Source: a virus. From it: DNA of 33,902 nucleotides. Position numbers and translations under genes: made by a program. Positions 7,105 to 23,255 of the stretch are shown in pieces; positions within the stretch are counted from its first letter, which is position 1; every line of letters starts with the position of its first letter. The stretch lies in the IMG/VR virus record IMGVR_UViG_3300027987_000362, positions 1-33,902 of that record; one strand, written 5' to 3'. The notes beneath the pieces are model-generated. The model did not search any database and had not been told where the DNA came from. It saw only the letters and a program-made list of their open reading frames with translations.

Positions 7105-8819
7105 CAGGTAGACCTCTTGAGCTTGGAGCCGGTCTGCTGGAGTTCGGCGCTGAGCTCACTCACCTCAAGCGGGTGAGTGCCGCTGAGCTGGTAGGCCAGG
7201 ACTGCGCCGGTCAGCCGACCCATCACCGAGTCGACGGCGTCCCGACCTGCCGTGGTGGTCCGCTGTGTGATAGAGCCGTTCTGGGTGGAGTCGTCGGCGA
7301 TGAACTGAGTGTTGACCGCCCCAGCACTTCCCTGCTGCACATACTTCAGATTCAGGCGGTGCCAGGTCTTGAGCTGGTCGGACCGGCCAAGCGCCTTCTC
7401 CCAGCTCGTGAAGCTGTAGGTGGGGGTGGTGCCGTCCACCGCTACGGTGCCGATCTCCTGCTCCAGCACCTGCCCAGTGCGATCACCCACCACGAACAGG
7501 TCGGCCCCCGCCTTGACCGTCAGGTCGGAGTAGGTGCGGGTCTCGGTCGCGTAAGTGGTCGAGATGGTGGCGTAGGTTTCGGTGTCGCTGAGCGTGCTGA
7601 ACAGGCCGAGCACGTTGGGCACGTTCGAGAAGATGCTATCCACAGGCCAAACCGTGTCGGTGCGGATGTCGTAGACCCAGAGCTTATCGGGGTGGTCACT
7701 GTCGGCCGAGACCCAAAGGACCCAGACGAACTGATTGAAGCGGTCATACTGGGCGAAGATGCGGAAGTCAGCGTCGAAGTTCAGGTTCGAGTAGAAGGTG
7801 CGCTTCCACTTGGGGAAAATACCGTACTGGGTGGAGCGGAGGCCCAGCTCGAGGAAGCGGCCATCATCGTCCAGGTAGAACCAGCCATCGTTGGCGATGA
7901 AGAAGTGGCGGCCCTCTCCCAGAGCTGTCACCGCGAAGGTCCCCAACAGCCCTCGCTGCTCGCTGATCTGCTCCTGCCGGAAGGGGTCGTAGACCTCGCC
8001 GGTCTGGCTCAGAAAGTAGATCCCCCGGCGCATGTAGCAGGCGATGAAGTTGCCGATGGGGCGGATTGCAACGCCCTCGCTGGCTGTGTCGATCAGGTCC
8101 AGGAAGCCCGCTCCGAGCGAGGCGGTGTCGAGAGTGGGGCTCGCCCCGGTGGTGGTCCAGCGCACCCGATAGGGGTAGGTGGTGCCCGACTCGGTGGTGT
8201 TGAAAAACATGATGCGGGAGGCGGCCGAGCAGACCGATCGGGCCTTGAAATCGTTCAGCACTGCAGGGCTGAAGTCGGTGTAGGTGGCGCCGCCTGGCTG
8301 GTGCGTGTAGACGGGGTCGAGAGCGTTGGTGATTATCAGGGCGTCGTCGACCGGGTAGTAGGCAAAGTCGCAGAGCGTCTGAGCCACCCCAACCCCGCTC
8401 GAGTCGCCTGAGAGGCCCGCACCCGCTCCGGTATAGGCTCGGTTGGTCCAGCTCGCGACGTACTCGTAGAGGTGGCCAAGGGTGGCGTTGGCGGTCACCC
8501 GGTAGCGTCTGAGCGTAGCGGGGCTGTCCGTGATGTCGCGAAGGAGAAAGACGCCTGTCACCGGGTTGGCATCGGGCGCTGTGCCGAGCTCCACGAACCC
8601 AGGCGGATAGGTCATCTTGCCGTTCAGGTGCACCAACCCCTGACAGGTCTTCGCGTCCCGCCAGTCGGTGAGCTCTGAACCGAGGTCCGGACAGTAGCCA
8701 CCCCAAGGGGGACCGATCGGGACGAACTCAGGCTCAGAGAGCTCGATCTGCCGGGCTCGGGAGCGATCACCCCTTCGGTCCAGGCGGCGTCGCTGGTGCT
8801 GTCCTAGACGGCTGGGCAT
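7104..8819 (-). CDS. Tail nozzle-like / DNA-stabilisation beta-propeller protein (571 aa)
   Basis: After a basic N-terminal stretch (about 1-25) the protein is beta-rich throughout. Recurrent blade-like segments end in short strand-turn-strand elements, for example GNFIACYMRRGIYFLSQTG, RHFFIANDGWFYLDDDGRF and FNQFVWVLWVS. This is the look of podovirus tail hub or nozzle proteins (T7 gp12 or P22 gp10 position), which form the end of the DNA channel. Its place downstream of the adaptor and upstream of the ejection proteins fits that role, although two secreted-type genes intervene. Specific homology was not checked. The annotated ATG has only a weak Shine-Dalgarno, so the exact start is less certain. 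Confidence 0.75.
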   Translation of the reverse strand: MPSRLGQHQRRRLDRRGDRSRARQIELSEPEFVPIGPPWGGYCPDLGSELTDWRDAKTCQGLVHLNGKMTYPPGFVELGTAPDANPVTGVFLLRDITDSPATLRRYRVTANATLGHLYEYVASWTNRAYTGAGAGLSGDSSGVGVAQTLCDFAYYPVDDALIITNALDPVYTHQPGGATYTDFSPAVLNDFKARSVCSAASRIMFFNTTESGTTYPYRVRWTTTGASPTLDTASLGAGFLDLIDTASEGVAIRPIGNFIACYMRRGIYFLSQTGEVYDPFRQEQISEQRGLLGTFAVTALGEGRHFFIANDGWFYLDDDGRFLELGLRSTQYGIFPKWKRTFYSNLNFDADFRIFAQYDRFNQFVWVLWVSADSDHPDKLWVYDIRTDTVWPVDSIFSNVPNVLGLFSTLSDTETYATISTTYATETRTYSDLTVKAGADLFVVGDRTGQVLEQEIGTVAVDGTTPTYSFTSWEKALGRSDQLKTWHRLNLKYVQQGSAGAVNTQFIADDSTQNGSITQRTTTAGRDAVDSVMGRLTGAVLAYQLSGTHPLEVSELSAELQQTGSKLKRST

Positions 8820-8850: not shown

Positions 8851-9756
8851 CTAACTGCCAACTGCATCGATAGTGCCTGGACCCACTTCGACGACAGATG
8901 CCGACCCGGGCTCAGAGTAGGCCAAGCCATTTGAGCCGCCGCTACCAGGGGCGCCGCCTGAGCCGGCTGTGCCGTTTTGGCCGTAATTTCCCCCAGCCCC
9001 ACCATCTGAAGCCGGGATGCCTTGGGTACCGCCACCTCCACCGCCTCCCCCGCCCCAGACTTCAAGCGTTGCGCCAGACTCAGGAGCTAGGCTGATATCA
9101 GGGCCGCCGTCGGTCGCCTCGAGAGCATCGCCACCGTCGTCACCATCCCCGGGATTGAATGCAAACATTCCGGACTCTGAGCCATTTCTATGGGTCCCGC
9201 CGGAACCGCCCGTCGTAGCGGTACCGTCTGTACCGGCTTCGGACCCTACTGGGGTGAAACCGCAGACCTCCGAGCCTCCAATGCCGCCTGAACCTCCTTG
9301 GGTACCTGCGCCTCCGCCGCCTCCTCCTCCCGCGCCAATGGAACTAAAAGCTACTGTGCACCCCGCGGTGCCACCATCGCCGCCTCTACCTTCGATTCGG
9401 GCGCTATCCGTACCTGCAACTACAATGGTAACGGTCCAGCCAGATTGCCAAGAACTACCGCAGTCCCCAGTCTGCATAGCCGGCGTGGAGCTAGAAGTTG
9501 AGCCCACAATTACGCTGTTGGAGATGGTAATTGTCACAACGCCGCTTGGAGTAGTGGCGGGGTTCACTCCCGTGGACTGGACTGCGGTGCAGATGTTGTA
9601 GTCGTTTGTAGAGGAGGTGATTGCCAGATTGACTGGCCCAGTGCCGCCAGCGCCAAAGCCAGTCAGCTCATTGACGGTGAGCTGGGCAAATGCGAGGAAC
9701 GGGACTAGGGATAGGCCCGCTGCAACTAGCTTGACTCTAGTCATCATTGTACGCAT
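8851..9756 (-). CDS. Secreted glycine-rich protein with signal peptide
   Basis: The N-terminus is a clear Sec signal peptide: basic start (MTRVK), hydrophobic core, and AFA before Gln as a signal peptidase I site. The mature protein has a Ser/Thr/Val-rich beta region with cysteines, then two long Gly tracts (around residues 140-165 and 230-290) with GGxGG repeats resembling the polyglycine domains of adhesins and some phage receptor-binding proteins. Several in-frame starts overlap the upstream gene (TTG 9759, ATG 9756, 9747, 9744). None has an ideal Shine-Dalgarno, so the exact start is uncertain; all keep the signal peptide. A signal peptide is unexpected in a phage virion operon. Confidence 0.75.
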   Translation of the reverse strand: MRTMMTRVKLVAAGLSLVPFLAFAQLTVNELTGFGAGGTGPVNLAITSSTNDYNICTAVQSTGVNPATTPSGVVTITISNSVIVGSTSSSTPAMQTGDCGSSWQSGWTVTIVVAGTDSARIEGRGGDGGTAGCTVAFSSIGAGGGGGGGAGTQGGSGGIGGSEVCGFTPVGSEAGTDGTATTGGSGGTHRNGSESGMFAFNPGDGDDGGDALEATDGGPDISLAPESGATLEVWGGGGGGGGGTQGIPASDGGAGGNYGQNGTAGSGGAPGSGGSNGLAYSEPGSASVVEVGPGTIDAVGS

Positions 9757-10690
9757 CAACGGTGTACTTCACCTGAATACCGATCAGCCGAGCGTCCTGG
9801 CTCGTGTCGTCGGTCTGCCCGTTGGTCTCGTCTGGGTCCCGGCCGACCCGACAGAAGGTCATGTCGGCTGTGGCTGGGGTGCCGCCGACGGTGAGAGCTG
9901 AGGTGGCGGCCGTGACGGCCAGGTCGTTCGAGGTCCCGGTGAAGGCGTCCCCCACGACCTGAAGGGTTCCGTAGGCCGTGTTGATCGCATCGTCGTTGGA
10001 GACCGCTACGCACTGCCAGTACCAGGCCACGGAGGTCGAAACGGCGGCTGAGACCGTGTAGTAGAACTTGGCGGTGAGGGTGCCCTCGTTCCAACTGTCC
10101 GGGAAGGTCAGGTTGAACAGGGCGAACTCGTCGCTGGTGCCGTCGAAGTCGAGGACGACTAGCTCGGGCTGGCCCGCTGTGAGCTCCACCTGGGCGACGG
10201 AGGCAGCGCCGTTGGTCGTCGCGGGGCGCATCGCTGCAGCGGGAACGAACACCGTCTTGGTGCCGAGCGGGGCGAGCTGCTGCCAGCTATCTGCGTCCCC
10301 GTCAGCGCCGCTGTCGATCGAGATGTAGAGGGAGTCGTCGTCGGTGTCGTGCCAGAGGCGCCCGCCATCGCAGCCCTGGTTGCCGTCGAAGTCCGCCTCG
10401 GTGAGGCAGCTCGCCGTGATGGTGCCGTCGACGGTGGGGGCAGCGGACTGACTGAAAGCTCGGGCGGCGCCCTGCAACAGGCGACCCGTGTCGGTCGTAA
10501 CGTTGCCGAACTCGCCGAAGTCCATCTCGGTCTCGATCCGATTGCGGACCTCGTCCCGGGTCTCCCGGATGTTGTCGTCGGCCTGGCTGACCGGGTCGGT
10601 GTTGGCCGGGTCAGCCTCGAAGGAGGCGTCCCACTGGGCGTAGCCAACGGTGGCCAGAGCGACGATCAGAAAGGGCAGCCAACGCTTCAT
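9737..10690 (-). CDS. Fibre-like protein with predicted signal peptide (317 aa)
   Basis: The N-terminus (MKRWLPFLIVALATVGYA, then Q) is a textbook Sec signal peptide with cleavage after GYA. Residues about 30-55 contain DPVSQADDNIRETRDEVRNR, a pattern seen near the N-terminus of many phage fibre or head-fibre proteins. The rest is beta-rich, with scattered cysteines and many Thr/Ala/Asp residues. It begins one base after the adaptor gene ends and overlaps the glycine-rich secreted gene, so the two are likely co-translated. Either the virion protein passes through the periplasm, or the hydrophobic segment is a retained anchor. Function is unknown. Confidence 0.8.
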   Translation of the reverse strand: MKRWLPFLIVALATVGYAQWDASFEADPANTDPVSQADDNIRETRDEVRNRIETEMDFGEFGNVTTDTGRLLQGAARAFSQSAAPTVDGTITASCLTEADFDGNQGCDGGRLWHDTDDDSLYISIDSGADGDADSWQQLAPLGTKTVFVPAAAMRPATTNGAASVAQVELTAGQPELVVLDFDGTSDEFALFNLTFPDSWNEGTLTAKFYYTVSAAVSTSVAWYWQCVAVSNDDAINTAYGTLQVVGDAFTGTSNDLAVTAATSALTVGGTPATADMTFCRVGRDPDETNGQTDDTSQDARLIGIQVKYTVDAYNDD

Positions 10691-10691
10691 A

Positions 10692-11354
10692 TCACTTCCC
10701 TCGCCCCATCACGGCGTTGCCGGTGCGGATGTGCTCGTTGCGCCAGCCGTCGTCCCTCGCTTCAAACCGAGAGGGCGGCGCGTGGTCGTTGATCATGTCC
10801 GCTACGTAGCTCATCCAGTAGTCGGCTCGGTCGAGCTCGCCGAGAGCGGCGTGGCCGAGAGCGGTAGCTCGGGCCAGGATCACATCGTCGAAGTAGTCGC
10901 CGACGTCGGTGGTGGCAGCGTCGGTGCTCATCGCCGAGTGGTAGGCCCAGTAGTAGACTCGAACGATGTCACCGTCGTTCTGGTCAGTCCCTTCGATCAG
11001 GATGTCGTTCGAGTCTGACCGGGCATAGAGGCGGGCGGCTGAGCCCCGATCGTAGAAGTCTCGCTCGGTCTGTGGGTCGTACTTGAAGTCCTGAGTCTCG
11101 TTCACGACGAAGCGAATCGCGTAGAGGTCACTGGCAACGGTGTAGCTGTCAGTCCCGTCGACGAGGGTGACCGTAGCGCTGGTCTTCAGCTCGGGATGCT
11201 CGAAGACGGCTGGGAGACCCACCCAGCGAGCCGAGATGTTCACCCAGCGGTTGAGGCGAGCTGCGACCGTGCTGTCGGAGTCGTCGAGGTCGCTGCGGTT
11301 GGAGATCTGGTAGCGGATCTCGTCCCGGAACTCGCTGAGCTGCAACGTTCCCAT
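10692..11354 (-). CDS. Head-tail adaptor (connector) protein
   Basis: This 220-aa protein starts with an amphipathic helix (LSEFRDEIRYQISNR) followed by an acidic linker and the helix AARLNRWVNISARWVG. That is the hallmark N-terminal arrangement of phage adaptor proteins that sit under the portal (SU10-like, P22 gp4 or T7 gp11 type). A short beta hairpin region (about 55-135) and a C-terminal helical segment (ARATALGHAALGELDRADYW) complete the pattern. The adaptor forms a dodecameric ring linking portal to nozzle. Its position between virion surface genes and the nozzle-like gene agrees. The class is likely; the exact family is inferred. Confidence 0.8.
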   Translation of the reverse strand: MGTLQLSEFRDEIRYQISNRSDLDDSDSTVAARLNRWVNISARWVGLPAVFEHPELKTSATVTLVDGTDSYTVASDLYAIRFVVNETQDFKYDPQTERDFYDRGSAARLYARSDSNDILIEGTDQNDGDIVRVYYWAYHSAMSTDAATTDVGDYFDDVILARATALGHAALGELDRADYWMSYVADMINDHAPPSRFEARDDGWRNEHIRTGNAVMGRGK

Positions 11355-11356
11355 GG

Positions 11357-12094
11357 CTATCTCTCGTTGATCAGGCGGTAGCGGCCCCGAACAGGCCGAA
11401 GCTCATCCGTGTCGGGGTCCTCCTGCCCGGGCATCACGTAGTCCCGCAGGTACTCCGACCAGACCAGGTCCTCTTTGAGGGCCTCGTGGCCAGTGAGGGG
11501 GCAGATCGCAGCCGCCGACTGGGACCCAAAAAACTCCTGCTCGCTCACGTCGATGCCGCTGAAGAGGGTGCGCTCGACCGACATGGAGAGCGTAGCGGAT
11601 TGGCCGCTCTCACTCTCGTCCACAGCGAGGCCGGTGCCGTCGTTGGTCCTCACGTGGAGGGTGAGGTTGAGGGCGCCCTGCCACTCCTCGGTCATGTTCA
11701 TGGCGGCGTTCAGCAGGGGCACGTCGAGGTCGAAGGTGACGGTGCGTCCGCCGGGGGTGGTGAAGGTCTGAGAGTCGAGGAGCAGGTCGCTCGTCAGGCT
11801 CATCTGGTTCTCAAGGAGGGGGCCATTGGTGTTCGAGAAGGCGGAGGGGTTGGAGTCCCCCTGGGCGTAGAGCTTGACCGTCACGGGCACCTGAGCGGCC
11901 GTAGGGACGATCCGCAGGGTCACTGTACCGCTCTCCGCTCGAGCCGGCCCCACCGTGAAGCCGGTGAATCTGAAGCCCGCTACGGTGCTGAGGGTCTCCT
12001 CGATCGAAAGGCCCGAGCCACTGGTCCAAGTGCCCGCCGAGGCGTCGTAGTAGCCGTCCTGGGCGAGAGTGCCGGTTTCGGTTGTAGCGGTCAT
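11357..12094 (-). CDS. Hypothetical beta-rich structural protein (245 aa)
   Basis: The protein is rich in Thr, Ser, Val and Gly, with alternating hydrophobics typical of a beta-sandwich (residues about 20-180), and a more helical charged C-terminus ending RPVRGRYRLINER. No enzyme signature is visible. It is coupled at its start to an 18-codon ORF (ATGA) and lies two bases upstream of the adaptor gene. That suggests a tail or collar structural component. I do not recognise the family. Confidence 0.7.
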   Translation of the reverse strand: MTATTETGTLAQDGYYDASAGTWTSGSGLSIEETLSTVAGFRFTGFTVGPARAESGTVTLRIVPTAAQVPVTVKLYAQGDSNPSAFSNTNGPLLENQMSLTSDLLLDSQTFTTPGGRTVTFDLDVPLLNAAMNMTEEWQGALNLTLHVRTNDGTGLAVDESESGQSATLSMSVERTLFSGIDVSEQEFFGSQSAAAICPLTGHEALKEDLVWSEYLRDYVMPGQEDPDTDELRPVRGRYRLINER

Positions 12095-12147
12095 AGGTAG
12101 CCACCGATCTCAGTCAGGGCCTGATTGAAGAGGTCGAGCTCGGTCAT
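12091..12147 (-). CDS. 18-aa mini-ORF, leader peptide or remnant of an adaptor-like N-terminus
   Basis: A very short ORF reads MTELDLFNQALTEIGGYL and its stop overlaps the next ATG as ATGA. The sequence resembles the first helix of some phage adaptor or head-completion proteins (LDLFNQALTEIG). It may be a translation-coupling leader, or the surviving start of a lost gene. No strong Shine-Dalgarno is visible. It is too short to prove coding. Confidence 0.35.
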   Translation of the reverse strand: MTELDLFNQALTEIGGYL

Positions 12148-12163
12148 GCGTTAGCCGTAAGCC

Positions 12164-12313
12164 TCAATCGGAATCGCTATTGGATTCCTGCCTATCGTTT
12201 TCAGGAGCGCTACGGACTGCTCGTTGCTCCTGGAACCTCAGGCATCCACGGCATAGGCCATCCTTGACAGCCTCTAGCTCCTGGCAATCCTGGCACCAAT
12301 TTTTCTCTTCCAT
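12164..12313 (-). CDS. CxxC/CxxC zinc-ribbon-like microprotein (49 aa)
   Basis: This gene fills the otherwise empty gap after the tailspike. It starts MEEKNWCQDCQELEAV and has a second pair, CRGC, about ten residues later, giving CxxC-x10-CxxC, the spacing of a small zinc ribbon. The C-terminal 20 residues are polar and acidic. An AAGGGG sequence lies about 9 nt before the ATG. The four cysteines probably bind one zinc ion. Possible jobs include protein or nucleic acid contact; nothing in the context decides this. Confidence 0.65.
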   Translation of the reverse strand: MEEKNWCQDCQELEAVKDGLCRGCLRFQEQRAVRSAPENDRQESNSDSD

Positions 12314-12326
12314 GACAACTGACCCC

Positions 12327-15300
12327 TTATGAAGCGCGCTTCAACAGCTCGACATACGTCAAAACTTGAGTATGCGAGGCCAGATCCGAAGTGGACCAAT
12401 CGTCCACGTATAGGTCCGCGTCCGGAAGTGGACCTGCCACAGCAACCCTCGAGTGCGTCGTACTCGTGCTAACAGACTCCAGAGAAGTCTGGGACCCAGT
12501 GATCGCCGGTATACCCGTCCCCGCATTGCTCGCAACTTCGAGCACCAAAGATCCAGAGTTGATCGGATTCACGCCGCCCCGGAACGTATCGCTATCTCGG
12601 GATTGCTTCATCACATGCCCAGTCCCGCTTACATTGTTCGTCACCACAACGCAGATCTGCATGTGCGATAGGGATCCGCCTGCAGCAGCGAACGTTGCCA
12701 CATTCGACGCCACGCCTGGGTCGTCCACATGCCAGATCGAATGCTTGAGAAGAGCGTCGCCGTGGATGACTCGGATCGGAGCACCGAGATCGCCTCCCCA
12801 ATCCATCGAGAGCGTGATCCCGGTATGGCTCCCTCGAGAGATTCCGATCAGGGTAATTCCCTGATGCGAAGCAGTCGTCGCCACAGGCGCAGCGGTCGCA
12901 ACCGTAGAAGCCGCCGCTCCGTTGATCGTACTCGACGCAACACTCGCTGCGAGCCCGGCAGGAGAGGCGTCGCTCTCGCCTAGAAGAGCATTCAAACCTG
13001 CTTCAGCCGCTCTGCAATGCTCGATGTAGCCCTCTTCCGTGGGATGCAGCCCATCGCTCAGAAGCGGGGGTCCCGGCGGATTGAACGTTTCGAAGTCGGA
13101 GTTTGCATAGTAGACATTGCCTTGTCCGATCTGGTAGGCGATCCATGGGTGCGCAAGAACGGCAGCGTTACAGGATTCCGCTTCCGAGGACACAAAGTCG
13201 GTTCTCGGCAGAACGTTGTGCAAGATCACTTTCGGGCATTTCCCGTAGGTCATCATGAAGTATATGCAAGCAGCGATCCCGAGGGCCGTATCCGCTGGCG
13301 TTTCGCCCGCGACCCACATGTCATTGGTTCCGAGATCTATGATGCCAATCCGGTTCGCATTGACCGTCAAAGAATCGAATAGACCTTCCCCGCTCATAGC
13401 GGCAGGGAGCATGTCGAACAGCGACCACCTGCACTGATGCCCGTTGGACCCGACGTTCAGGATGTTGCCGCGACGCCCTCCAGAATTCGGAACGGCGTCA
13501 TATAGCAACTCATGCGCAATCGACAGGGACGCCCCGCCTCGCGTGTCGTTGTCGAACTCAAACCAGCGCTCCACGAACGAATGACCTAACAGGATGATGT
13601 CCGGGTCGTCACTCATCGCAGAGATATCCGCGAGGATTTGCACAACTCTTGCGTCATGCGCCGCGCTGACCCGCTCGGTCGGTGTATTCGGCCCTACTGT
13701 TCCCGTATCGGGAGGATCCGGGACTGGAGCCGGCGGCTCGATGACAGGAGGCTTCTGGCCCACATAGAGGACCACACCCATACCACCAGCGCGGGTTACG
13801 CGGATTTCATCCTTGTTGTAGTCAACCGGTACGGCACCGATCACCTCTTGAAGGACAGGGTTCTGCGGGTGGTTCCCGTCGTACGTCGCCGTCACGGTCG
13901 AAAAACAAAGCTGACTGTTGTTGTTGATCCATGCGTATGTCGCAGGAGGCAGTGCGATCATCAGATGGTACCCACCCAGAATCTCGGACTTCGCTCCATT
14001 GAGGTTCTCGAGGATGCCGCATGCAGTCTCTGTCTTCAGACCAAGAATGAACAGCTCTCCGCCATCGTTCCGGATGTGACGGAGCGTGCCATGGTTGCTC
14101 TCCGGGTCGAAATGCCGCGCGAAGACCTTGCAGCCAGAATGAATGTGGAGCTGCTGTGCGTCCGGACTCGCAACGCTCTTCTGGAGCATATGCACATCTT
14201 CCAGAAATAGCGTTGCCCCGCCGTCCACATCGATATAGCCAGCGTTGTGAATGTGCATGTATCGCATCAGTACCGACCGTGACGTGTCGATCTGCACTGA
14301 GATGCTGTTCATGTTGAATAGCCACCACCCGTACATCTCCACTACGGCTTCAGATCCGTCGTCCGCGATGATGACGGGACCCGTGTACCCCGTGCTGCGC
14401 TGAATGTGCGCGTGCCCGATCGAAACGAATCGCTTCAGGTTCCCTCGGAGATAGATCGGACCGTCCACACCGTAGTAATCGCGACGCGCCTGCGTGTAGA
14501 CGACCTCCGCACCACTGTCGATCGCAGCCTGTATCGCAGCTCGGGAGCTGTTCGCGGGATTCATCGAGTCCGCTTCTACGTCATACGCAACTGCACCGAA
14601 CGACTCGACGCTAACCCACTTCGATGCGTCATCGATCACGATTTCTGGGGTTTCCTGGAGGGTCAGATTCAGCGTCCCGCCAGCTCCCGTCGTAGCCATC
14701 GGCGGTGTCGGATGGACGAATTCATCAATGTAGTCGTCATCAAACGGAACTAGCGTCCCTTCTCGATAGTCGGCGGTTGCAAGACCCCTGGAAGGAGAAC
14801 CAATATACCCAGCATTCGTATGAATCGGAGCGTCAAAGCCGCTCGTCGTAACGTTCCGAATCAGAGCCAGCGAAGAGAACTGCGTGCCTGGACCGCGGAC
14901 ATAGATCGCTCCGCACTCACGGTCTACCCCGGGAGTCCCCGTCCAGCGAAGATCCGAGTCGAGAAGCACAAGGTGCGCGTGCTCAGATCGACAGAGAACG
15001 GCCGGCACCTTCCCGGAAAATCGGAGCTTGCGCACCGACATGCTGAAGACTTTGAACATCGAAAGTCCCGCGATTCTCGGATTCCGAGAGTCGATGTCCT
15101 CGAGGGTGACCGATCCATTGATCTCTCCAGTGTTCGCGGATGTCGACACCGAGTAGTCAAATCCCTCGATGATGACGTGCTTCGCGATGGAGGGGCCGTT
15201 CGGGTATGACCGGTAGCCGTACCCAATTCCCGTGATGCCTCCCCCATCTTCGGAGCGGATGCGAACGTTCCTTACATGACCGATATTGTTCGTGTTGAAC

Positions 15301-16340
15301 TCAATCGCTATGGCCGCTGGATTGTCCTTGCCGATCTCTATCGTGCACTGACGAACGGAGCACCAGAAAGCGTTGTTTTTCGGCGAGGACGCGTTGAACT
15401 GGCTGTCGATTCGGATAAAGCTGCGCGGAGCATCGTAAGGGTTCCTGTACCCTTCCGCTCCGGCCATGAGCCGTATGATGGTCCCATCCCTCGATGCACC
15501 GATGATTTCCGCTCCTGATTGGAGTGTCCCGTCAGCGCTCTCCCAGGGGATCCTGTTCGTGAACTCGTACGTCGCCTCATATTTGAAATAGAACTGACGA
15601 GGCGATCCGGGTCCATTCTCGGATGCAGCCGTCGAAGTCAGCATATCGACCCATAGTTGCGGATCGATGGGACCATCAAACGGAGTGATACCGAAGCTCT
15701 CGACATCGTACACAGCCGAGTCGAGCGGGATGTACTCGTCTAGAGCTATAGGCTCGGCGTTTGCAAAGGTGAGGCCGAAATGAAACACCTTATCGGAACT
15801 GGCGCCTGAATCATTCCAAACCAAGGAACCTAGGCTCGGCACTGCGAGTGAGAGATGGACAGGGCCGGAAGTAACACTACCTACCAAGTCTACGGTACTC
15901 GTAGTAGCTGAACCCCGATTATAGGCGCAGGCTCCCAAGAGGAACTGGGAAGTTTTTGATGGTGAAGTGACGGGGAATTTGGTTGCGAACCCACCTTCGA
16001 TGATACCGACAGTACCGGCACTCTGGAGGACACCGCCGAGAAGGCAAGCGATCACAGATCCGGATCTACTACTCGACTGGAGATTGACTGTCTCAGAGGT
16101 ACTAGGGCTATACGCTATAAAAATAGACAGAGTCGTGCGGACATCCCCTGCGAGGTGGGACTCATGAAAGAGCTCAGTCATAGGCATCCCGGATAGCAAG
16201 CAGGAACTACTAAGACCGGAGCTACCGCTGCCAGCGTGGAAGACCACTAAAGCTGAGTTCGACTCAGAGGGAATAGCTAAGACAGAGTCCCATCGAGTGC
16301 CGATTGAGGCAGAGGCGACCAGTTCCGCTGAGATTGCCAT
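12327..16340 (-). CDS. Composite tailspike: beta-sandwich, two beta-helix regions, SGNH esterase, C-terminal beta-sandwich (1337 aa)
   Basis: Residues 1 to about 200 are a Ser/Gly-rich beta domain. Two regions each open with a VESFG motif (about 210 and 570), the usual start of pectate-lyase-like beta-helix tailspikes; the second reads SVESFGAVAYDVEAD then RAAIQAAIDSG. A Pro-rich linker (about 865-885) leads to an SGNH hydrolase: LGHSF with the nucleophile at Ser921, the Gly block in NVGSNGHQC, DLGTNDMW as the G-x-N-D block, and SDGLHPTE supplying Asp and His. About 230 further residues form a beta domain ending KRAS. This suits a receptor-binding protein that binds surface polysaccharide and removes ester (for example acetyl) groups. 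The last 453 residues duplicate the 483-aa esterase upstream. The N-terminal half is less GC-rich than its neighbours. Confidence 0.85.
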   Translation of the reverse strand: MAISAELVASASIGTRWDSVLAIPSESNSALVVFHAGSGSSGLSSSCLLSGMPMTELFHESHLAGDVRTTLSIFIAYSPSTSETVNLQSSSRSGSVIACLLGGVLQSAGTVGIIEGGFATKFPVTSPSKTSQFLLGACAYNRGSATTSTVDLVGSVTSGPVHLSLAVPSLGSLVWNDSGASSDKVFHFGLTFANAEPIALDEYIPLDSAVYDVESFGITPFDGPIDPQLWVDMLTSTAASENGPGSPRQFYFKYEATYEFTNRIPWESADGTLQSGAEIIGASRDGTIIRLMAGAEGYRNPYDAPRSFIRIDSQFNASSPKNNAFWCSVRQCTIEIGKDNPAAIAIEFNTNNIGHVRNVRIRSEDGGGITGIGYGYRSYPNGPSIAKHVIIEGFDYSVSTSANTGEINGSVTLEDIDSRNPRIAGLSMFKVFSMSVRKLRFSGKVPAVLCRSEHAHLVLLDSDLRWTGTPGVDRECGAIYVRGPGTQFSSLALIRNVTTSGFDAPIHTNAGYIGSPSRGLATADYREGTLVPFDDDYIDEFVHPTPPMATTGAGGTLNLTLQETPEIVIDDASKWVSVESFGAVAYDVEADSMNPANSSRAAIQAAIDSGAEVVYTQARRDYYGVDGPIYLRGNLKRFVSIGHAHIQRSTGYTGPVIIADDGSEAVVEMYGWWLFNMNSISVQIDTSRSVLMRYMHIHNAGYIDVDGGATLFLEDVHMLQKSVASPDAQQLHIHSGCKVFARHFDPESNHGTLRHIRNDGGELFILGLKTETACGILENLNGAKSEILGGYHLMIALPPATYAWINNNSQLCFSTVTATYDGNHPQNPVLQEVIGAVPVDYNKDEIRVTRAGGMGVVLYVGQKPPVIEPPAPVPDPPDTGTVGPNTPTERVSAAHDARVVQILADISAMSDDPDIILLGHSFVERWFEFDNDTRGGASLSIAHELLYDAVPNSGGRRGNILNVGSNGHQCRWSLFDMLPAAMSGEGLFDSLTVNANRIGIIDLGTNDMWVAGETPADTALGIAACIYFMMTYGKCPKVILHNVLPRTDFVSSEAESCNAAVLAHPWIAYQIGQGNVYYANSDFETFNPPGPPLLSDGLHPTEEGYIEHCRAAEAGLNALLGESDASPAGLAASVASSTINGAAASTVATAAPVATTASHQGITLIGISRGSHTGITLSMDWGGDLGAPIRVIHGDALLKHSIWHVDDPGVASNVATFAAAGGSLSHMQICVVVTNNVSGTGHVMKQSRDSDTFRGGVNPINSGSLVLEVASNAGTGIPAITGSQTSLESVSTSTTHSRVAVAGPLPDADLYVDDWSTSDLASHTQVLTYVELLKRAS

Positions 16341-16342
16341 GA

Positions 16343-16474
16343 TTACCTATCTCTCCGACTTCTCAGTTGGGGGGCGTCGAATAGAAGGATGCTTTCCGCG
16401 TCTCCAATCTTCAGAGAGATAGAACCAGACGCGGAAGGTGTGCCTGGGATCAGTTCGTCTAGGACCTTCATCAT
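16343..16474 (-). CDS. 43-aa microprotein between the two SGNH genes
   Basis: The ATG at 16474 overlaps the stop of the upstream esterase gene (ATGA), and the gene ends two bases before the tailspike start, so it exactly fills the space. It starts MMKVLDELIPGTPSASG and continues SISLKIGDAESILLFDAPQ, with a basic tail. The pattern of short strands suggests a small folded peptide or an assembly tag. No family is recognised. Support is positional: both junctions are typical of this operon. Confidence 0.6.
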   Translation of the reverse strand: MMKVLDELIPGTPSASGSISLKIGDAESILLFDAPQLRSRRDR

Positions 16475-17922
16475 GACGCCCGCTTCTCGAGTTCCAGATA
16501 CGTAATCACCTGCGTCCGAGAGGTCGGCGCGTCGACCGTATCCCACCCGGTCGTCGCGATGTCCGCATCGGCCAGCGGCCCCGAGTTCGCGACTCGCGTA
16601 TGCGTCGTGCTGTCCGAACGCGCCTGCAAGGAGGTCTGCCCCGAGGTGACCACAGGGATCCCGCCCCCCGCATTCGACGCCACTTCAAGCACGAGCGAGC
16701 CAGAGTGAATGGGGTTCACGCCCCCAAGGAAGCTCTCATCATCGCGAGCGATCACCATCCCATGCCCACTTCCTTGCACGTTGTTCGTGACGACCGTGAA
16801 GATCTGAAGATGCGTGATCGTCCCGCCTGTCCGGGTGATTGTCGCGGTCTGAGTCGCGACGCCCGGATCGTCCAGGTGCCAGATGAAGTGAGAAAGAAGA
16901 CCCCCGTCTGCATTCGTGACGCGAGGTGCCCCGAGATCTGTCGCTCCCCAAGTCGCAGCGAAGGATGTGCCGCTGAGGTTCCCCCGAACGACACCCACGA
17001 TCGTGAGCCCCTGATCAGCAGAGCTGACCGCAACGCTTGCGATGCTGACCGAAGCCGGGTTCCCCGTCGCCCCGTTCTGCGCGCTGGACGCGACGGAGGC
17101 CGCGGTTCCTGCGGGGGCCGCGTCCACTTCCGAGAGAAAGGCATTGAAGCCCACTTCGGCCGCGTCCGCGATTTCCAGATACCCGAGCTCCGTCGGGTGA
17201 AGCCCATCGCTCGTGTCGGTCACAGGATCGAACCCTGCGAAGTCGCTGTCCGCGTAGGTGATGATTCCGCTGGTGTTCACGTGATAGTCGATCCAGGGGT
17301 GAGCGAGCACAGCGGCGTTGCAGTCTTCCGCTTCGTTCGAGACGAAGTCGGTTCGAGGGAGCACGTTGTGCAGCACGACGCGCGGGCACTTCCCATAGGT
17401 TATGAGGAAGTAGACGCAAGCGGCGATGCCCAGCGCAGTGTCTTCAGGCGTCTCTCCCGCAACCCACATGTCGTTCGTGCCGAGATCGACGTACCCGATG
17501 CGGTCCGGGTTTGTGGTGAGCGCGTCGAACATTCCCTCTCCACTCATCGAAGCGGGAAGCATGTCGTAGAGAGACCAGTTGCATTGATGGCCGTTGGACC
17601 CGGCGTTCAGAACGTTTCCTCGCCTCCCTGCGTTCGGAACGTCATAAGGAGAAATCCCGTGCTGGATCGAGAGTGACGCTCCGCCCTGAGCGTCGTTCGT
17701 GTGGCTGAACCACCGCTCTATAAAACTGTGGCCCAGCATGATGATGTCTGGGTCATTCCCCATCGCAGAGATGTCCGCTGCGATCTGGACCAAGCGAGCC
17801 TCGTGCGCTGCGCTTACGCGCTCCAGTGGCGTGTTCGGCACCACCGTTCCGGTCAAAGGAGGGGGCGGCCCAGTAGGAGCGGCGGCCGCCATCACGCGAA
17901 CGATTCTTCGGACTCGGTTCAT
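16471..17922 (-). CDS. SGNH/GDSL-type esterase, virion-associated (483 aa)
   Basis: A short basic and Ala/Pro-rich N-terminus (1-28) leads into an SGNH hydrolase. Block I is LGHSF with Ser66 as nucleophile, block II contains Gly108 in NAGSNGHQC, block III is LGTNDMW (Asn150) and block V is SDGLHPTE with Asp239 and His242. His replaces the usual Asp of the GDS motif, a substitution also found in some SGNH relatives. Residues about 255-483 form a beta-sandwich-like domain ending LEKRAS. Such enzymes remove acyl groups from surface polysaccharides. The module from residue 30 onward is a close copy of the C-terminus of the 1337-aa tailspike two genes later, so the two probably share substrate class or trimerise similarly. 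Location in the virion is inferred. Confidence 0.9.
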   Translation of the reverse strand: MNRVRRIVRVMAAAAPTGPPPPLTGTVVPNTPLERVSAAHEARLVQIAADISAMGNDPDIIMLGHSFIERWFSHTNDAQGGASLSIQHGISPYDVPNAGRRGNVLNAGSNGHQCNWSLYDMLPASMSGEGMFDALTTNPDRIGYVDLGTNDMWVAGETPEDTALGIAACVYFLITYGKCPRVVLHNVLPRTDFVSNEAEDCNAAVLAHPWIDYHVNTSGIITYADSDFAGFDPVTDTSDGLHPTELGYLEIADAAEVGFNAFLSEVDAAPAGTAASVASSAQNGATGNPASVSIASVAVSSADQGLTIVGVVRGNLSGTSFAATWGATDLGAPRVTNADGGLLSHFIWHLDDPGVATQTATITRTGGTITHLQIFTVVTNNVQGSGHGMVIARDDESFLGGVNPIHSGSLVLEVASNAGGGIPVVTSGQTSLQARSDSTTHTRVANSGPLADADIATTGWDTVDAPTSRTQVITYLELEKRAS

Positions 17923-17932
17923 GGGGAACCTC

Positions 17933-19000
17933 TCAGAACCCAGCAGTCACATTCCGAGCTGCCCGCTTCTTTCCGTACTCGACGATGCCCGTTGCTGAGT
18001 AGAACTTCGGGGAGGGCCAGTTGCCGTCGTTGTGGGTACCGCCTCGGGCGAGAGTGACGATTGCCCGAGGGTTGGTTCCGCTGAGCGAGGCGTAGCAGCC
18101 TCGGTGGAAGTAGACCGGCATGGGGAGCACCTTGAGGCCGTCCACACTGATCTCACCGCTGAAACCCTCACCGTCGATGATCTCCCCGGCGGTTGAGGAG
18201 GCGTCGTCGGTGTCGTAGAGCTTCAGGGCTTCGCCGGAGGTGCTCGAGAGCATCTGAGCTATGTCAACGCAGCCAGGGCCGACGAAGAGCTGCCGGCTAG
18301 CCGTGACGGGGATCGCGAAGGGGAAGCGATCGAGCACCAAGCCTAATCGGGCATCGTCGGTGACGATGTGGTCGAAGAGGACCGTTCCGGCTGTTGTGGT
18401 CGCATCCTGGCTCAGCACCCCCACAACCCCCTGGGTGATGTCGGCGCTGGTGAACCCGGTCTGCTGCGTGAGGGCAGTACCGTTGAGCCAGCAGTCGAAG
18501 GTCGAGGCAGCGCCGCCTGCGGGGTCGAAGAAGAACTCGACTGTGTGCCAACGGCCAGTGGTGATCGCTGCGAACTGGCTGGCCGCACTGGTGTCCTGGC
18601 CGGTGCCGAGTCTGAGGCCATTGGCCGTGGTGTAGTTGATGTAGATGCCGCACTCGATTACCGGGCCAGCGGAGTGGAAGAGGAGGATGGCGAACTCATC
18701 CCCATTGGCCATGGTCACATCGTCGGAGAGGTAGAGCTGGAAGCGGCCGTAGAGCTCGCCCGTGCCGGCAGTCATGTCCCAAGAGCTCGTCTCAGTTACG
18801 AAGGCGTCCGCGGGGGTGCCGTCGTTCCGGAGGTCGACGCGCATGCAGTAGGAGCCTGAGAACGGAGCTAGGGCCGGTCGGAGCTTCGCCAGGGTCGAGA
18901 AGTGAGGGAAGTCCAACCGGCTCTCGGTGTCCGTCTCTGAGTCGAAGTGCCCAAGAGTACCCACGTCGAAGTGGTTCTCGCTGACGAACGGAAAGGCCAT
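17933..19000 (-). CDS. LamG/concanavalin-like jelly-roll virion protein (355 aa)
   Basis: The first 240 residues have the typical jelly-roll lectin pattern: a strand with LYGRFQLYLSDDV, then EFAILLFHSAG, then GRWHTVEFFFDP followed by STFDCWLNGTAL (the W-H-x-V-E and F-x-x-W-x-N-G-x strands), and VLFDHIVTDD. The C-terminal 100 residues are a separate beta region with cysteines and basic residues. Such domains bind carbohydrate or serve as virion surface decorations. It begins 14 nt after a related-looking protein. Carbohydrate binding is inferred from the fold pattern. Confidence 0.75.
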   Translation of the reverse strand: MAFPFVSENHFDVGTLGHFDSETDTESRLDFPHFSTLAKLRPALAPFSGSYCMRVDLRNDGTPADAFVTETSSWDMTAGTGELYGRFQLYLSDDVTMANGDEFAILLFHSAGPVIECGIYINYTTANGLRLGTGQDTSAASQFAAITTGRWHTVEFFFDPAGGAASTFDCWLNGTALTQQTGFTSADITQGVVGVLSQDATTTAGTVLFDHIVTDDARLGLVLDRFPFAIPVTASRQLFVGPGCVDIAQMLSSTSGEALKLYDTDDASSTAGEIIDGEGFSGEISVDGLKVLPMPVYFHRGCYASLSGTNPRAIVTLARGGTHNDGNWPSPKFYSATGIVEYGKKRAARNVTAGF

Positions 19001-19014
19001 CGCTCAGCTCTCCC

Positions 19015-19944
19015 TTAGCCCAGCTCGTACTTGGCCGCGAGCTGCACCTTGGCGATCAGGAGGTTCTTGGCGACCGCCTCCCCGGTGATGAAGGCGATCG
19101 AGGGGCACATGACGGCGCCGGGCACGTCGCTGTTGGTCGACAGGTCGATGGAGCCCACGTAGGTGCTGCTCGGGTGCTGGCTACCCGTCGGCTTGCGGTG
19201 GTAGTCGATGAAGGCGTGCACGACGCCAGTGCCGGCAGTGCGGTTCAGGTTGCGGGCCTGGAAGGTGAAAGTCACCCACTTGTTGATGAGGTTGTGGTTG
19301 GAGCTGTTCAGGTTGATGAGGCTGGCCGTTGTGGAGGCGCCGGTGTCGGGGGCGCCGCTCGTGGCGTCGGCGACGAGCTGGACCGCTCCGGTGCCGTCGG
19401 CCTTGGCGAAGCCGATGTAGTCGTCGACGGCCGTGAGGATCGAGGTGTCGACGGCGGAGAAGCCCATGAACCAGCGGCTCTGCTCGACGGTGTCGTCGTC
19501 GTTGTTGGCGTCGGTGAACTTGACCGTCGCCGAGAACATCATGTCCTCGCACAGCGAGGTGTCGAACATGGTGCGGGTGCCTACGCTGGCCTGCATCTGA
19601 CCGCCGTCAGCGGCCGTAGCGCCCGTAGCGAGCTGGAGGTAGGCCGGGAAGGTGTTCCGCACGATGGTGATCGTGGAGGCGTTGAACTGGGTGTGCTGCC
19701 AGTCGGTGCCGGCAGCGGTCTCGGTCGGGGCCGCCGGGTTGTCGACCCACTCCTCCTCGAGGCTGGGCTTGGAGAAGTCGTAGGTGACGTGAAGCCAGCG
19801 GTCGAAGAGCTCCACCGCCGGGGGGCAGCCGCCAAAGCGCTTTGGGGTGGTGCCGGAGACAATACGGCCGGCGCCGCTCGTGTCGGTACCGCGGACAACC
19901 TCGGGCAAGTCCTGGAAGCGGCAGTAGTCGCCATTCTCGAACAT
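19015..19944 (-). CDS. Beta-sandwich virion surface protein, possibly lectin-like (309 aa)
   Basis: Residues about 50-280 look like a second jelly-roll: FDRWLHVTYDF, a long Thr/Ala strand region, SLCEDMMFSATVKFTD, QSRWFMGFSAVD and NKWVTFTFQARN. The order and spacing of strands resemble the neighbouring LamG-like protein, although sequence similarity is low by eye. The ATG has a strong GAGGAGG upstream, indicating high expression, as expected for a structural protein. Its likely role is a decoration or receptor-contact protein on the virion; this is an inference. Confidence 0.7.
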   Translation of the reverse strand: MFENGDYCRFQDLPEVVRGTDTSGAGRIVSGTTPKRFGGCPPAVELFDRWLHVTYDFSKPSLEEEWVDNPAAPTETAAGTDWQHTQFNASTITIVRNTFPAYLQLATGATAADGGQMQASVGTRTMFDTSLCEDMMFSATVKFTDANNDDDTVEQSRWFMGFSAVDTSILTAVDDYIGFAKADGTGAVQLVADATSGAPDTGASTTASLINLNSSNHNLINKWVTFTFQARNLNRTAGTGVVHAFIDYHRKPTGSQHPSSTYVGSIDLSTNSDVPGAVMCPSIAFITGEAVAKNLLIAKVQLAAKYELG

Positions 19945-20008
19945 GGGCCAAACCCTCCTCGGTTAGCGGGTGGGCCAGTCCCGCAGGCCACTCGGCCCAT
20001 TCGGTCGG

Positions 20009-21040
20009 TTAGTCCTGAAGCGCGAACTGCACCATGCACCAGTAGTCCTGGGTGCTCAGATCTTCAGTGGTGACTGCGGAGACCGCTACAGTCGCACCCG
20101 CTGCGATGTCGGTCGTGGTCGGGGTCGCAGCGAAGCAGCCCGTCGTGGCCGTTGCGATCGTGCAGGTGACGTCGGGGGTTGTGGCCCCTGCGGCCGTGCG
20201 CACATGCAAGGTAACGCCGTTGGAGCCCGAACCCGTGACCTGGCAGTACATGCCGACCACCTTGGCTGCCACGTCGGCGAACATCACCTCATCGGCAGTG
20301 GCCTCTGTGGTGTTGTCTTCAGCAGCGCAGCCAGTCCCCGCGAGGGTGTAGTCGAGATCGTTGGCGGTGAGGCCGCCTGCGTAGAAGGGGCCGCTCGCGT
20401 AGCCCGTGACAGGGCTGGTGTAGTTGGTCGTGTTGTTGGGCAGGTCGCCGCAGAAGATCCCCCAGACGAGCATGTTGGCGCCCACTTCGTCAGGGCCGAT
20501 GGTGGAGTTGGGGAGGATGACTTCGTCGTCGCCGGTGCTGTCTGTGACGACGGTGACGGATGTGGTGTCACCACTACCTACCTGAACTGCTGCGGCTCCA
20601 CCGCTGTCGTAGATGCAGAGGGCATCGGTGTCGTCGTCGGCACAGGTGAAGCTGACTGAGCCTGAGTCGGCCCGGGTGATCGTGATGGCGTTGTCGTTGG
20701 TGGCTGCGTCGAGGACCGTGGCGTTGCCATCGCTATCGAAGGTGAAAGTGTCCGCGGTGGTAGAAGCGATGCTGGTGAAGGCTCCCGCGGCGTCATCCGC
20801 CATGTGGATCCAGCTTGAGCCGTTGTAGAGCATCATGACGGCGTTGGCGCCGCTACCGGCGGTGCAGTTGGTACTCGAGTTGCAGTCAGTCACCCAGCAG
20901 GTGTTGCCCGTTTCGGTGCCGCAGTTGGTCGAGGCGGTCGCGAAGGTGGCTGTCGGGACTCGGTTGTAGGTCGCTGCGTAGGCTACGGAGCAGCCAGCAG
21001 CGAGCAGGCCGAGCCAGAGCCAGATTCGATTGCGGGTCAC
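20009..21040 (-). CDS. Cysteine-rich secreted or lipoprotein-like virion-operon protein (343 aa)
   Basis: The start is GTG and overlaps the stop of the lysine-rich microgene (GTGA). The N-terminus MTRNRIWLWLGLLAAGCSVA is a signal peptide. AAGC at residues 14-17 could be a lipobox, and AYA at 20-22 a signal peptidase I site; the sequence does not decide between them. The mature part is rich in Thr, Ala, Asp and Gly with many cysteines, including a cluster near residues 38-60, suggesting disulfides formed in the periplasm. No enzyme motif is visible. It sits directly after the capsid genes, an odd place for an exported protein. It could be a virion decoration routed outside the cell or an envelope protein blocking superinfection. 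Confidence 0.75.
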   Translation of the reverse strand: MTRNRIWLWLGLLAAGCSVAYAATYNRVPTATFATASTNCGTETGNTCWVTDCNSSTNCTAGSGANAVMMLYNGSSWIHMADDAAGAFTSIASTTADTFTFDSDGNATVLDAATNDNAITITRADSGSVSFTCADDDTDALCIYDSGGAAAVQVGSGDTTSVTVVTDSTGDDEVILPNSTIGPDEVGANMLVWGIFCGDLPNNTTNYTSPVTGYASGPFYAGGLTANDLDYTLAGTGCAAEDNTTEATADEVMFADVAAKVVGMYCQVTGSGSNGVTLHVRTAAGATTPDVTCTIATATTGCFAATPTTTDIAAGATVAVSAVTTEDLSTQDYWCMVQFALQD

Positions 21041-21204: not shown

Positions 21205-22143
21205 TCAGACCTGCGACCCGACGATGCCGAGACCGAGCGGGCTGGTGTGCTGCACGTTGCCGCGGTAGATCTGGCGGAACTTGCGGTTGCCCGTGTCGGC
21301 GTCGATCGAGCGGCTCATTGTGGGGCGCATGCGGCTCAGGTAGGTGAGGCCGTTCGAACCGGGGGCCGCCATGATGGACCAGTCATTCGTGTCGATGTCG
21401 TTCAGGTAGGGGCTTGAGACCGGCGTCATGCCGTACTTGGTCAGCGTGCTGGCGTCGTTCAGGTTGCCGCCCGGCCGGCCCGTTGTGTTGAGCAGCGTCC
21501 ATGCGACGTGCATCAGGCTCGAGGGGGTGACGAGGAAGCGGAACTGGAGCGACTTGCCGACCTGGTGACCTTCCTCGGAGAGCTGCGTCTCGCCGATGAT
21601 GAGAGCCGCCTCGAGCGAGTCGACGTCGAGCGGGGCGCCCGGGCTGAGCTCGTTGCTCTGGGTCGTGATCGAGGCCGTCGGGGGCTTGAGCAGCGTGTGG
21701 GCCGTGTTGACGATCGAGAGACCGTCGAGGCCCAGGCCGGTCGAGGAGCCGCTGAACATGTCGCCGATCATGCCCCAGCAGAGGCGCTCTTCGTGGTCGA
21801 TCTGCGAGCGCGTGAGGCCCTCGACCTGTCGGTTCAGGACGTCGAACTGAGCGTCCATCTGAGCTTCCATGGTCATCTGAACGCCAAGGGCGAAGGTCGA
21901 GATGGTCGTCCGGGTGACCTGGCCCTGCACCGGGATGTCGTACTGAACCGGTGTTCCTTCGTTCTTGGTGAGGAAGCGGCCGACACTGCTGAAGCGGAGG
22001 TTCTCCACGAACGCCTGCGTGACCGTCTTGGTCCGGAAGAGCTGGGTGTAGCTCTTCGGGTTCTGACGGTGCGTCATGAAGAAGATCTCGTAGGGCTTGG
22101 TGTCGACAATGTTCGGGCCTTGCCCTGAAGTGAAGATGGCCAT
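21205..22143 (-). CDS. Major capsid protein (HK97-fold)
   Basis: This 312-aa protein follows portal, scaffold-like and decoration-like genes, the canonical capsid position. Its sequence shows features of HK97-type capsids: an extended N-terminal arm; a long spine helix region around QMTMEAQMDAQFDVLNRQVEG and the following charged helix; an E-loop-like beta region; a conserved-looking core strand LQFRFLVTPSSLMHVAWTLL; and a C-terminal domain with SRSIDADTGNRKFRQIYRGN. AAGGAG lies about 9 nt before the ATG, suiting high expression. No protease is visible, so assembly probably relies on the separate scaffold-like protein. Confidence is high by context. Confidence 0.85.
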   Translation of the reverse strand: MAIFTSGQGPNIVDTKPYEIFFMTHRQNPKSYTQLFRTKTVTQAFVENLRFSSVGRFLTKNEGTPVQYDIPVQGQVTRTTISTFALGVQMTMEAQMDAQFDVLNRQVEGLTRSQIDHEERLCWGMIGDMFSGSSTGLGLDGLSIVNTAHTLLKPPTASITTQSNELSPGAPLDVDSLEAALIIGETQLSEEGHQVGKSLQFRFLVTPSSLMHVAWTLLNTTGRPGGNLNDASTLTKYGMTPVSSPYLNDIDTNDWSIMAAPGSNGLTYLSRMRPTMSRSIDADTGNRKFRQIYRGNVQHTSPLGLGIVGSQV

Positions 22144-22156: not shown

Positions 22157-22747
22157 TTACGAAGGCGTCACGGTGAACTGGTTCTCGACCACGATGGCTC
22201 TGACCTGAGTGCCAGTGCCGCCCGAGAACACGATGTTCTGTCCATTGTCGTCGAGGACTTCGACGATCTGGAGCATCTCTCGAGCTGCCGTCACGCCTGT
22301 GTCGATGGAGTAGTTGCCGGAACCGTCGAGGGTGAAGCCAGCAGTCTCGCCAATGGCGTTGGCCTGCGTTGGGGTTGCTGCCGTGCCAGCTCCGTCCGTC
22401 GCGAAGTTGCGGCACTTGATCGAGGCACCAGGCATGCAGACTGCCACGGCGACCATGTCGCTGGTCGTTGGGGTGAAGCCGTCCCCAGTGATTTGATACT
22501 GGCCGATCCGGCGGACGAAGGAGCCAACAGGGTCGCTCGACCGGGCGGTGTCACCTGAGGTAATTGCGACGCCGAGAAAGGTGACCACAGTCGGGTCGTC
22601 ACCGCTCTCCTGCACCTCGCCGTCGCTGTTGAGGTAGACCGGCTCACCGGGAGCAAAGGACTCGCTCGCGTTGAGAGGAAAGTACTCGACCCGAATGTAG
22701 GGTCCGTAGTCGTCAGGATCCGGAAGGATCAGATCACCCTTCGCCAC
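22157..22747 (-). CDS. Capsid decoration / head-fibre-like protein (196 aa)
   Basis: The protein is beta-rich. Its N-terminal part contains FAPGEPVYLNSDGEVQESGD, then FLGVAITSGDTA. This 'F-x-x-G-x-x-V-Y-L-x-x-D-G' and 'GVA' pattern is common in small phage head decoration proteins encoded next to the capsid gene. It lies immediately upstream of the major capsid gene (13-nt gap) and overlaps the preceding gene by 14 nt. It probably binds the capsid exterior and stabilises it. The family is not confirmed. Confidence 0.7.
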   Translation of the reverse strand: MAKGDLILPDPDDYGPYIRVEYFPLNASESFAPGEPVYLNSDGEVQESGDDPTVVTFLGVAITSGDTARSSDPVGSFVRRIGQYQITGDGFTPTTSDMVAVAVCMPGASIKCRNFATDGAGTAATPTQANAIGETAGFTLDGSGNYSIDTGVTAAREMLQIVEVLDDNGQNIVFSGGTGTQVRAIVVENQFTVTPS

Positions 22748-23255
22748 GATTCACCTCCTGGATTTGGTAGCCGTTGTCCCCGTGATCGGGGTCCTTGAAG
22801 AAAACATTGCCGCCCTGCGGGACGTAGCCCGGCTTGCGACCTCGGAGCGTCTGAGCCTCGACGGGGTTGCGCTCGAGGATCGTGGTTGTGGGGAGGTCCA
22901 TCTCCGCTCGGCGGGCCTCGGCCTTCTGGCGGCGGAACCGGGCGTACTCCTCGGAGGGGATCCGCATGAGGTACTTGCCTTCGAGCACCATCTCGCCGTT
23001 CGTGTCGGGCTGACCAGAACGGGGGTTGAGCTGACCCCAGCCGACGAAGCGCTCCTTCGAGCCGTCGCAGCGCTCGTAGCCGCGAATCTGGAGGGAGCGC
23101 ACGTTGTGGTCGGTGGCGATCGTGTAGTGCCAGCCGGGCTGTCGGCCGATGATGTTCCAGATCTCGCCCTTGCCCTTCCAGTTGCCCCAGGGCTTTGCGC
23201 CCATCGCGTTGGGGTCCATGGGCTTCGCCCACTCACGCTTCGCTCCGGGGTTCAT
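22734..23255 (-). CDS. Hypothetical head-region protein (173 aa)
   Basis: A basic, aromatic-rich protein: WGNWKGKGEIWNII, then PGWHYTIATDHNVRSLQIRG, a central beta segment, and a charged helix RIPSEEYARFRRQKAEARR. The ATG overlaps the scaffold-like stop by 4 nt (ATGA). It lies between scaffold-like and decoration-like genes, suggesting a head-assembly or capsid-associated role. I recognise no family. Residues 115-135 could be a nucleic acid or protein-binding helix. Confidence 0.7.
   Translation of the reverse strand: MNPGAKREWAKPMDPNAMGAKPWGNWKGKGEIWNIIGRQPGWHYTIATDHNVRSLQIRGYERCDGSKERFVGWGQLNPRSGQPDTNGEMVLEGKYLMRIPSEEYARFRRQKAEARRAEMDLPTTTILERNPVEAQTLRGRKPGYVPQGGNVFFKDPDHGDNGYQIQEVNRGEG

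Follow-up and report, generated by a model that had tools for sequence, protein, structure and literature searches.

The coat proteins pIII and pVIII of filamentous phages are made with Sec leaders, and these phages assemble at the membrane and are extruded. The virions of tailed phages, to our knowledge, are taken to assemble entirely in the cytoplasm. The phage proteins T5 Llp and Rtp45 are sent to the periplasm. T5 Llp acts on FhuA from the periplasmic side and has a Cys11-Cys58 disulphide (PMC9586334), and Rtp45 is a small phage lipoprotein that acts on LptDE (PMC12685063). In phages of Porphyromonas gingivalis, genes without an assigned function carry Sec leaders that are cut before Gln, which is known as the Q rule (PMC10367356). 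Phage genes with Sec leaders have thus been noticed before, and the passages of that study on P. gingivalis phages do not link them to tail fibres (PMC10367356). A search of open-licence PMC text for Sec leaders on tailed-phage fibres found no report.

Here, we analyzed a complete virus record from IMG/VR with a length of 33,902 bases (the window, meaning the whole stretch of DNA). Unlike the phages with pIII and pVIII, it is a tailed phage with a dsDNA genome that encodes a terminase, a portal, and a capsid of the HK97 type. Its major capsid protein (MCP) has relatives in Pelagibacter phage HTVC023P, Roseobacter phage CRP-901, and Alcaligenes phage QDWS535, among others, at 26-29% identity. 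The virion genes lie on the minus strand and include three leader-bearing genes, SP1, SP2, and SP3. In the order of transcription, the features are:

28684-29271, minus strand, probable small terminase, by position
27036-28697, minus strand, large terminase (TerL; phrog_38, E 3.2e-54)
24305-26299, minus strand, portal, by position
23252-24139, minus strand, scaffold-like protein, by position
22157-22747, minus strand, small decoration-type protein, by position
21205-22143, minus strand, MCP (PF25209, E 1.5e-13; phage homologues)
21037-21201, minus strand, 54-aa basic ORF between MCP and SP1, its stop overlapping the SP1 start
20009-21040, minus strand, SP1, 343 aa, transcribed after the 54-aa ORF
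after SP1, minus strand, two proteins, one of which resembles polysaccharide lyase (match below the curated cut-off)
16471-17922 and 12327-16340, minus strand, two proteins with an SGNH-hydrolase-like domain
11357-12094, minus strand, gene transcribed between the SGNH pair and the adaptor
10692-11354, minus strand, SU10-type head-tail adaptor, directly upstream of SP2 (PF24175, E 3.8e-11, above the gathering score)
9737-10690, minus strand, SP2, 317 aa, with the adaptor upstream and SP3 downstream
8851-9756, minus strand, SP3, 297-301 aa, its start overlapping the end of SP2
7104-8819, minus strand, nozzle/stabilisation-type virion protein, directly downstream of SP3 (phrog_3287, E 1.9e-17; homologous to 7085-8737 of contig L002)
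6523-7104, minus strand, gene transcribed after the nozzle gene
6079-6501, minus strand, GNAT acetyltransferase, followed by probable internal virion proteins

We propose, with a probability of about 0.5, that SP1-SP3 are Sec-exported and probably disulphide-bonded fibre or adhesin proteins made together with the virion set; export taken by itself appears quite probable from the sequences. Like T5 Llp and Rtp45, the proposed SP1-SP3 would be phage proteins sent to the periplasm, in the case of Llp with a disulphide (PMC9586334, PMC12685063). Those proteins, in contrast, are small lipoproteins and not fibre-like, and they were compared with SP1-SP3 by description rather than by sequence. SP2 and SP3 are similar to the Q-rule proteins of P. 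gingivalis phages in exposing Gln at the predicted cut, whereas the passages on those genes establish no link with fibres or with tandem sets of the virion operon (PMC10367356). Gln is found at position +1 in two of the three leaders of the window. The Q rule would point to a Bacteroidota host, which appears unlikely in view of the strong Shine-Dalgarno motifs that the window uses.

The three N-termini had been proposed as Sec-type in an earlier note, and both the coordinates and the translations proved right. Of the 29 genes of the window, SP1, SP2, and SP3 alone have convincing leaders, all of the classical Sec/SPI type. Their coding stretches and predicted cleavage sites are:

20975-21040, minus strand, SP1 leader VTRNRIWLWLGLLAAGCSVAYA, residues 1-22, cut before ATYN (AYA/A); the GTG start overlaps the TGA stop of the 54-aa ORF
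10637-10690, minus strand, SP2 leader MKRWLPFLIVALATVGYA, residues 1-18, cut before QWDA (GYA/Q)
9685-9756, minus strand, SP3 leader MTRVKLVAAGLSLVPFLAFA, cut before QLTV (AFA/Q); the ATG codons at 9756, 9747, and 9744 all precede the hydrophobic core

Each leader has the features expected of a Sec/signal peptidase I substrate, namely a positive n-region, a core of at least 7-8 hydrophobic residues, and small residues at -3 and -1. The leaders were scored with our own model of the n/h/c-regions combined with a cleavage matrix, not with SignalP. A set of 31 E. coli leaders served to build and to check the model, with leave-one-out scores from 11.4 to 38.1, and a 49-kb E. coli region served as a further check. 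Mid-range control values were obtained for SP1 (26.9) and SP3 (26.4) and a low one for SP2 (16.3), while the top-scoring cytosolic protein of E. coli reached 13.7. With the cut forced at GYA/Q, SP2 scored 10.9. It is the weakest of the three by the scorer, yet classical by eye. The remaining genes of the window all scored below 14, apart from the portal read from GTG 26299. This match was rejected as a wrong-start artefact, as the over-long GTG start has no Shine-Dalgarno match and later starts score below 0.

The starts of SP1, SP2, and SP3 have Shine-Dalgarno-like support of -11.3, -8.0, and -6.8 kcal/mol, respectively, against a background median of -3.0; the SP3 value is only moderate. All three overlap or abut the stop codons of the preceding genes. 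The first in-frame starts past the cleavage sites are at residues 50, 56, and 64, so that no leaderless form with the full mature protein could be made from ATG, GTG, or TTG.

Single matches to the scorer are cheap, since 22 of 568 mechanically called ORFs from 43 fetched viral loci passed the threshold, many of them short, non-coding, or membrane-bound in appearance. Nevertheless, it is very improbable that the three leaders are a product of chance or of gene calling. The threshold was reached by 0.57% of shuffled proteins with matched composition, which gives a probability of 6e-4 for three or more among 29. In six comparison phages, none of 139 annotated CDS carried a leader (proteins of at least 150 aa, threshold 16), as compared with 3 of 29 window genes (Fisher p 0.0047). 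Also opposed to chance are the Shine-Dalgarno-like support, the abutting or overlapping starts, and the conservation of the leader in an SP1 homologue described below. The statement that virion proteins normally lack leaders agrees with the count of 0/139, but leaders in virion modules are not unique to the window.

In the case of SP2, the leader is followed by a DDNIRE helix, a module that reads ARAFSQSAAPT...RLWHDTDDDSLY, and a C-terminal domain common to gp74 of EBPR siphovirus 2. Two IMG/VR contigs encode SP2 homologues without a leader (L002:6393-7088 and L005:9932-10717), directly before the nozzle gene as in the window. These fibres start with MASNSGWNKDVPSG... and MPLGDGDSWNESNPSG..., respectively, and SP2 aligns with their beginnings from about residue 19 (QWDASFEADPANTDPVSQADDNIRET...). 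As only 6 codons (L002) and 3 codons (L005) separate the upstream stop from the fibre start, a missed leader is ruled out there. The L005 homologue matches the phrog_24210 tail fiber protein with E 4.9e-20. SP2 alone gave no family match in profile searches, and its place among phrog_24210-like fibres comes from homology and gene position through L005 and L002. It shares with them the N-terminal helix and the LWHDTDD module; unlike them, it has a leader and extra cysteines. Leaderless fibres at the same place, which start where mature SP2 would start, indicate that SP2 belongs to a known type of fibre and has gained a leader.

The gene order of L005 around the fibre resembles the one in the window: scaffold-like, MCP-like, decoration-like, adaptor-like, fibre, nozzle, a 194-aa protein, GNAT-like, and internal-type, with names given mostly by position or appearance. 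The L005 adaptor was named by position only, and the window adaptor showed no sequence match to it. In the IMG/VR scan, only distant relatives of SP2 were found. The C-terminal domain of SP2 is 39.5% identical to gp74, which has no leader, and Cys227 and Cys280 of SP2 align with Gly and Phe in gp74. In a 196-kb phage contig (L003), a distant LWHDTDD fibre gene is followed directly by a Gly-rich gene, which is the SP2-SP3 order, and both genes lack leaders. The DDNIRE sequence, previously described as a helix common in phage fibres, could not be confirmed as a general marker: a DNA pattern for it gave 43 loci in IMG/VR, with unrelated proteins only. The LWHDTDD and AFSQSA blocks are better fibre markers, and the homology of SP2 to fibres is concluded from the longer alignment and not from DDNIRE.

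Another protein of EBPR siphovirus 2, gp70 (L004:8589-9752), matches phrog_19943 (virion structural) and phrog_24898 (tail fiber) and has a hydrophobic N-terminus, MSLITPRRALIGAATAGIVLASQPSLIASPALILP. This might be another leader or an anchor on a fibre.

The scorer is blind to the difference between a leader and an N-terminal membrane helix, and E. coli Gsp proteins also score; no second membrane segment was seen in the mature parts of SP1-SP3. The N-termini could therefore be leader-like only and stay uncut within the virion, where they would seat the fibre or enter the membrane at infection. Such a use agrees with the building of tailed-phage virions in the cytoplasm. We consider it improbable, because an AxA-type site immediately follows a short core in all three proteins, and in SP2 this site directly precedes the homologous start, and because the leaderless homologous fibres are left unexplained. 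The proposal of exported fibre or adhesin proteins accounts for SP2 as a fibre type encoded beside the nozzle gene that would have acquired a leader, with SP1 and SP3 as putative partners with leaders of their own. Behind its leader, SP3 has a short region without repeats and then a Gly-rich part; no homologue of it was found in phages.

SP1 consists of the leader, a predicted beta-rich stalk with the TTSVTVVTDSTGDDEVILP motif, and a C-terminal head with six conserved cysteines. A TGDxEVxLP pattern retrieved one SP1 homologue from IMG/VR, L054:4006-4704, which is 42% identical over 204 aa (E 3e-42) and keeps all six head cysteines. It has its own leader, MQFRRLLILVIGIMFIALAAYA, cut before G. 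The head is thus common to both phages, while most of the stalk is absent in L054. The possible lipobox noted earlier in SP1 could not be upheld: LAAGC has A instead of L, V, or I at -3, and the L054 homologue keeps AYA without that Cys. SP2 and SP3 have no Cys at the core end, and none of the three follows [LVI][ASTVI][GAS]C. SP1 as a lipoprotein was dropped on account of the poor motif and the unconserved Cys.

L054 is a podovirus-type phage with a portal related to that of Pelagibacter phage HTVC010P (36%), and BLAST found no similarity between its MCP and TerL and those of the window. The SP1 homologue lies between TerL and portal, and the next gene, 4728-5375, begins with the leader MKFRRILILALGFVLITVGLVWSQ. 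The two leaders are related at the DNA level, with 39 of 66 nt identical against a codon-shuffle mean of 24, a value to which the shared layout of any leader may contribute; the mature parts are unrelated. The second leader has a low score (10.6) and was counted mainly for its likeness to the first. It looks as though the leader were a copied module, like a portable tag on different mature parts. Both genes share a similar Shine-Dalgarno context, TAGGAG...ATG.

A third contig, L046 (38% G+C), was fetched by a DNA pattern unrelated to leaders. It encodes TerL, portal, and, directly downstream of portal, two leader-bearing ORFs (525-1672). The first is a small ORF with a leader-type start ending in ..NALFA, and it is followed by a 283-aa protein (525-1376) with the leader MKKSILTVLFVFLFSLSVYA; both have A/Q cleavage, before Q. 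Tandem leader-bearing genes in a packaging or virion stretch therefore occur on three contigs with differing gene contents. This favours the suggestion of a system rather than an accident: the leader of SP1 is kept in its sole homologue, which lies beside a second leader gene in a phage whose MCP and TerL are unrelated, and the arrangement in L046 is similar. A close-relative scan of IMG/VR found no close relatives of SP1, MCP, or TerL. In tblastn, neither SP1 nor SP3 nor the L054 homologue matched any of 50,697 phage records, and queries A3 and A4 gave nothing in 84,980 prokaryote species. Against the proposal speak the low position of the SP2 leader among the controls, the low score of the second L054 leader, and the small number of homologues, one for SP1 and none for SP3.

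The mature parts of SP1, SP2, SP3, the two L054 proteins (in gene order), and the L046 protein contain 12, 4, 4, 8, 4, and 2 cysteines, respectively. All these counts are even, as compared with 5 of 17 other Cys-bearing proteins of the window (Fisher p 0.0046 for the six larger proteins and 0.049 for the three of the window; the parity test was devised after the first three counts had been seen, and the p values are indicative only). SP1 contains about five times as much Cys as the other proteins of the window (p 1e-5). The description of the three as cysteine-containing or glycine-rich applies well to SP1 with its 12 Cys and to the Gly-rich SP3, but SP2 and SP3 have four Cys each and are individually not significantly Cys-rich. 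The even counts fit with disulphide bonding outside the cytoplasm and do not prove it; an uncut anchor leaves them unexplained. AlphaFold2 models were of low confidence (pLDDT 33 for SP2 with 3 sequences and 35 for SP1 with 1 sequence), and structural statements on SP1 and SP2 consequently rest on sequence only. Searches of the PDB by sequence and by profile yielded either nothing or matches at chance level.

In the proposed course of events, SP1-SP3 would be made alongside the virion proteins and routed through the host Sec pathway, signal peptidase I would cut the leaders, and the mature proteins would fold outside the cytoplasm, probably with disulphide bonds. The folded fibres may then meet the virions at lysis and be added as the last assembly step. 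We prefer this continuation because the helical module at the N-terminus of the non-exported homologues is retained in SP2, which is the sole copy of that fibre in the window. Joining after lysis is nevertheless put forward tentatively: an adhesin would have to outlast lysis and then reach its site, and known tailed-phage fibres join in the cytoplasm.

Action of the exported proteins on the envelope or the receptor is somewhat less likely than late joining. SP1-SP3 would in that case be receptor masks or envelope modifiers, fibre-like heads that occupy the phage's own receptor in the periplasm, on the surface, or after release by lysis, never entering virions, and they would block superinfection or stop progeny from sticking to debris. 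The small periplasmic receptor-blocking lipoproteins T5 Llp (PMC9586334) and Rtp45 (PMC12685063) offer a precedent, and the SP1 head is common to unrelated phages without most of the stalk, as would be expected of a binding domain. We regard masks as rather unlikely, since SP1-SP3 are far larger than the Rtp45 type and have no good lipobox, SP2 keeps an N-terminal fibre module that a soluble mask does not need, and a Sec product in a diderm host stops in the periplasm, while fibre receptors are outside.

The recurrence of leader-bearing genes in unrelated viruses suggests that in some tailed phages the adhesion apparatus is not wholly put together inside the cell and that a part of it is exported. 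A whole class of tailed phages that finish their virions outside the cytoplasm, with Sec-exported, periplasm-oxidised fibres docked at lysis and the leader as a portable tag on adhesin domains, is a speculative extension that we hold to be doubtful. Sec-led fibres in unrelated phages would mean either an extracellular last step of assembly or secreted adhesin copies that control adsorption. Either outcome would change the prediction of virion proteins and the expression of fibres (periplasmic, oxidising), as well as views of host range and superinfection in uncultivated phages.

Two further features of the operon were observed. Genes of GNAT type, like that at 6079-6501, are also present in other podovirus virion operons, often adjoining tail genes (L005:13191-13898, L059:17166-17597, L050:12778-13206, and L060:4860-5297, assigned by annotation or appearance). 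The SGNH/GDSL-like hydrolase domain, together with its C-terminal part, occurs as a tandem pair in the genes at 16471-17922 and 12327-16340; much of the former resembles the C-terminal part of the latter (e.g., RVSAAHDARVVQILADISAMSDDPDIILLGHSF), and this stretch is lower in G+C (56-60% vs. 62-69%).
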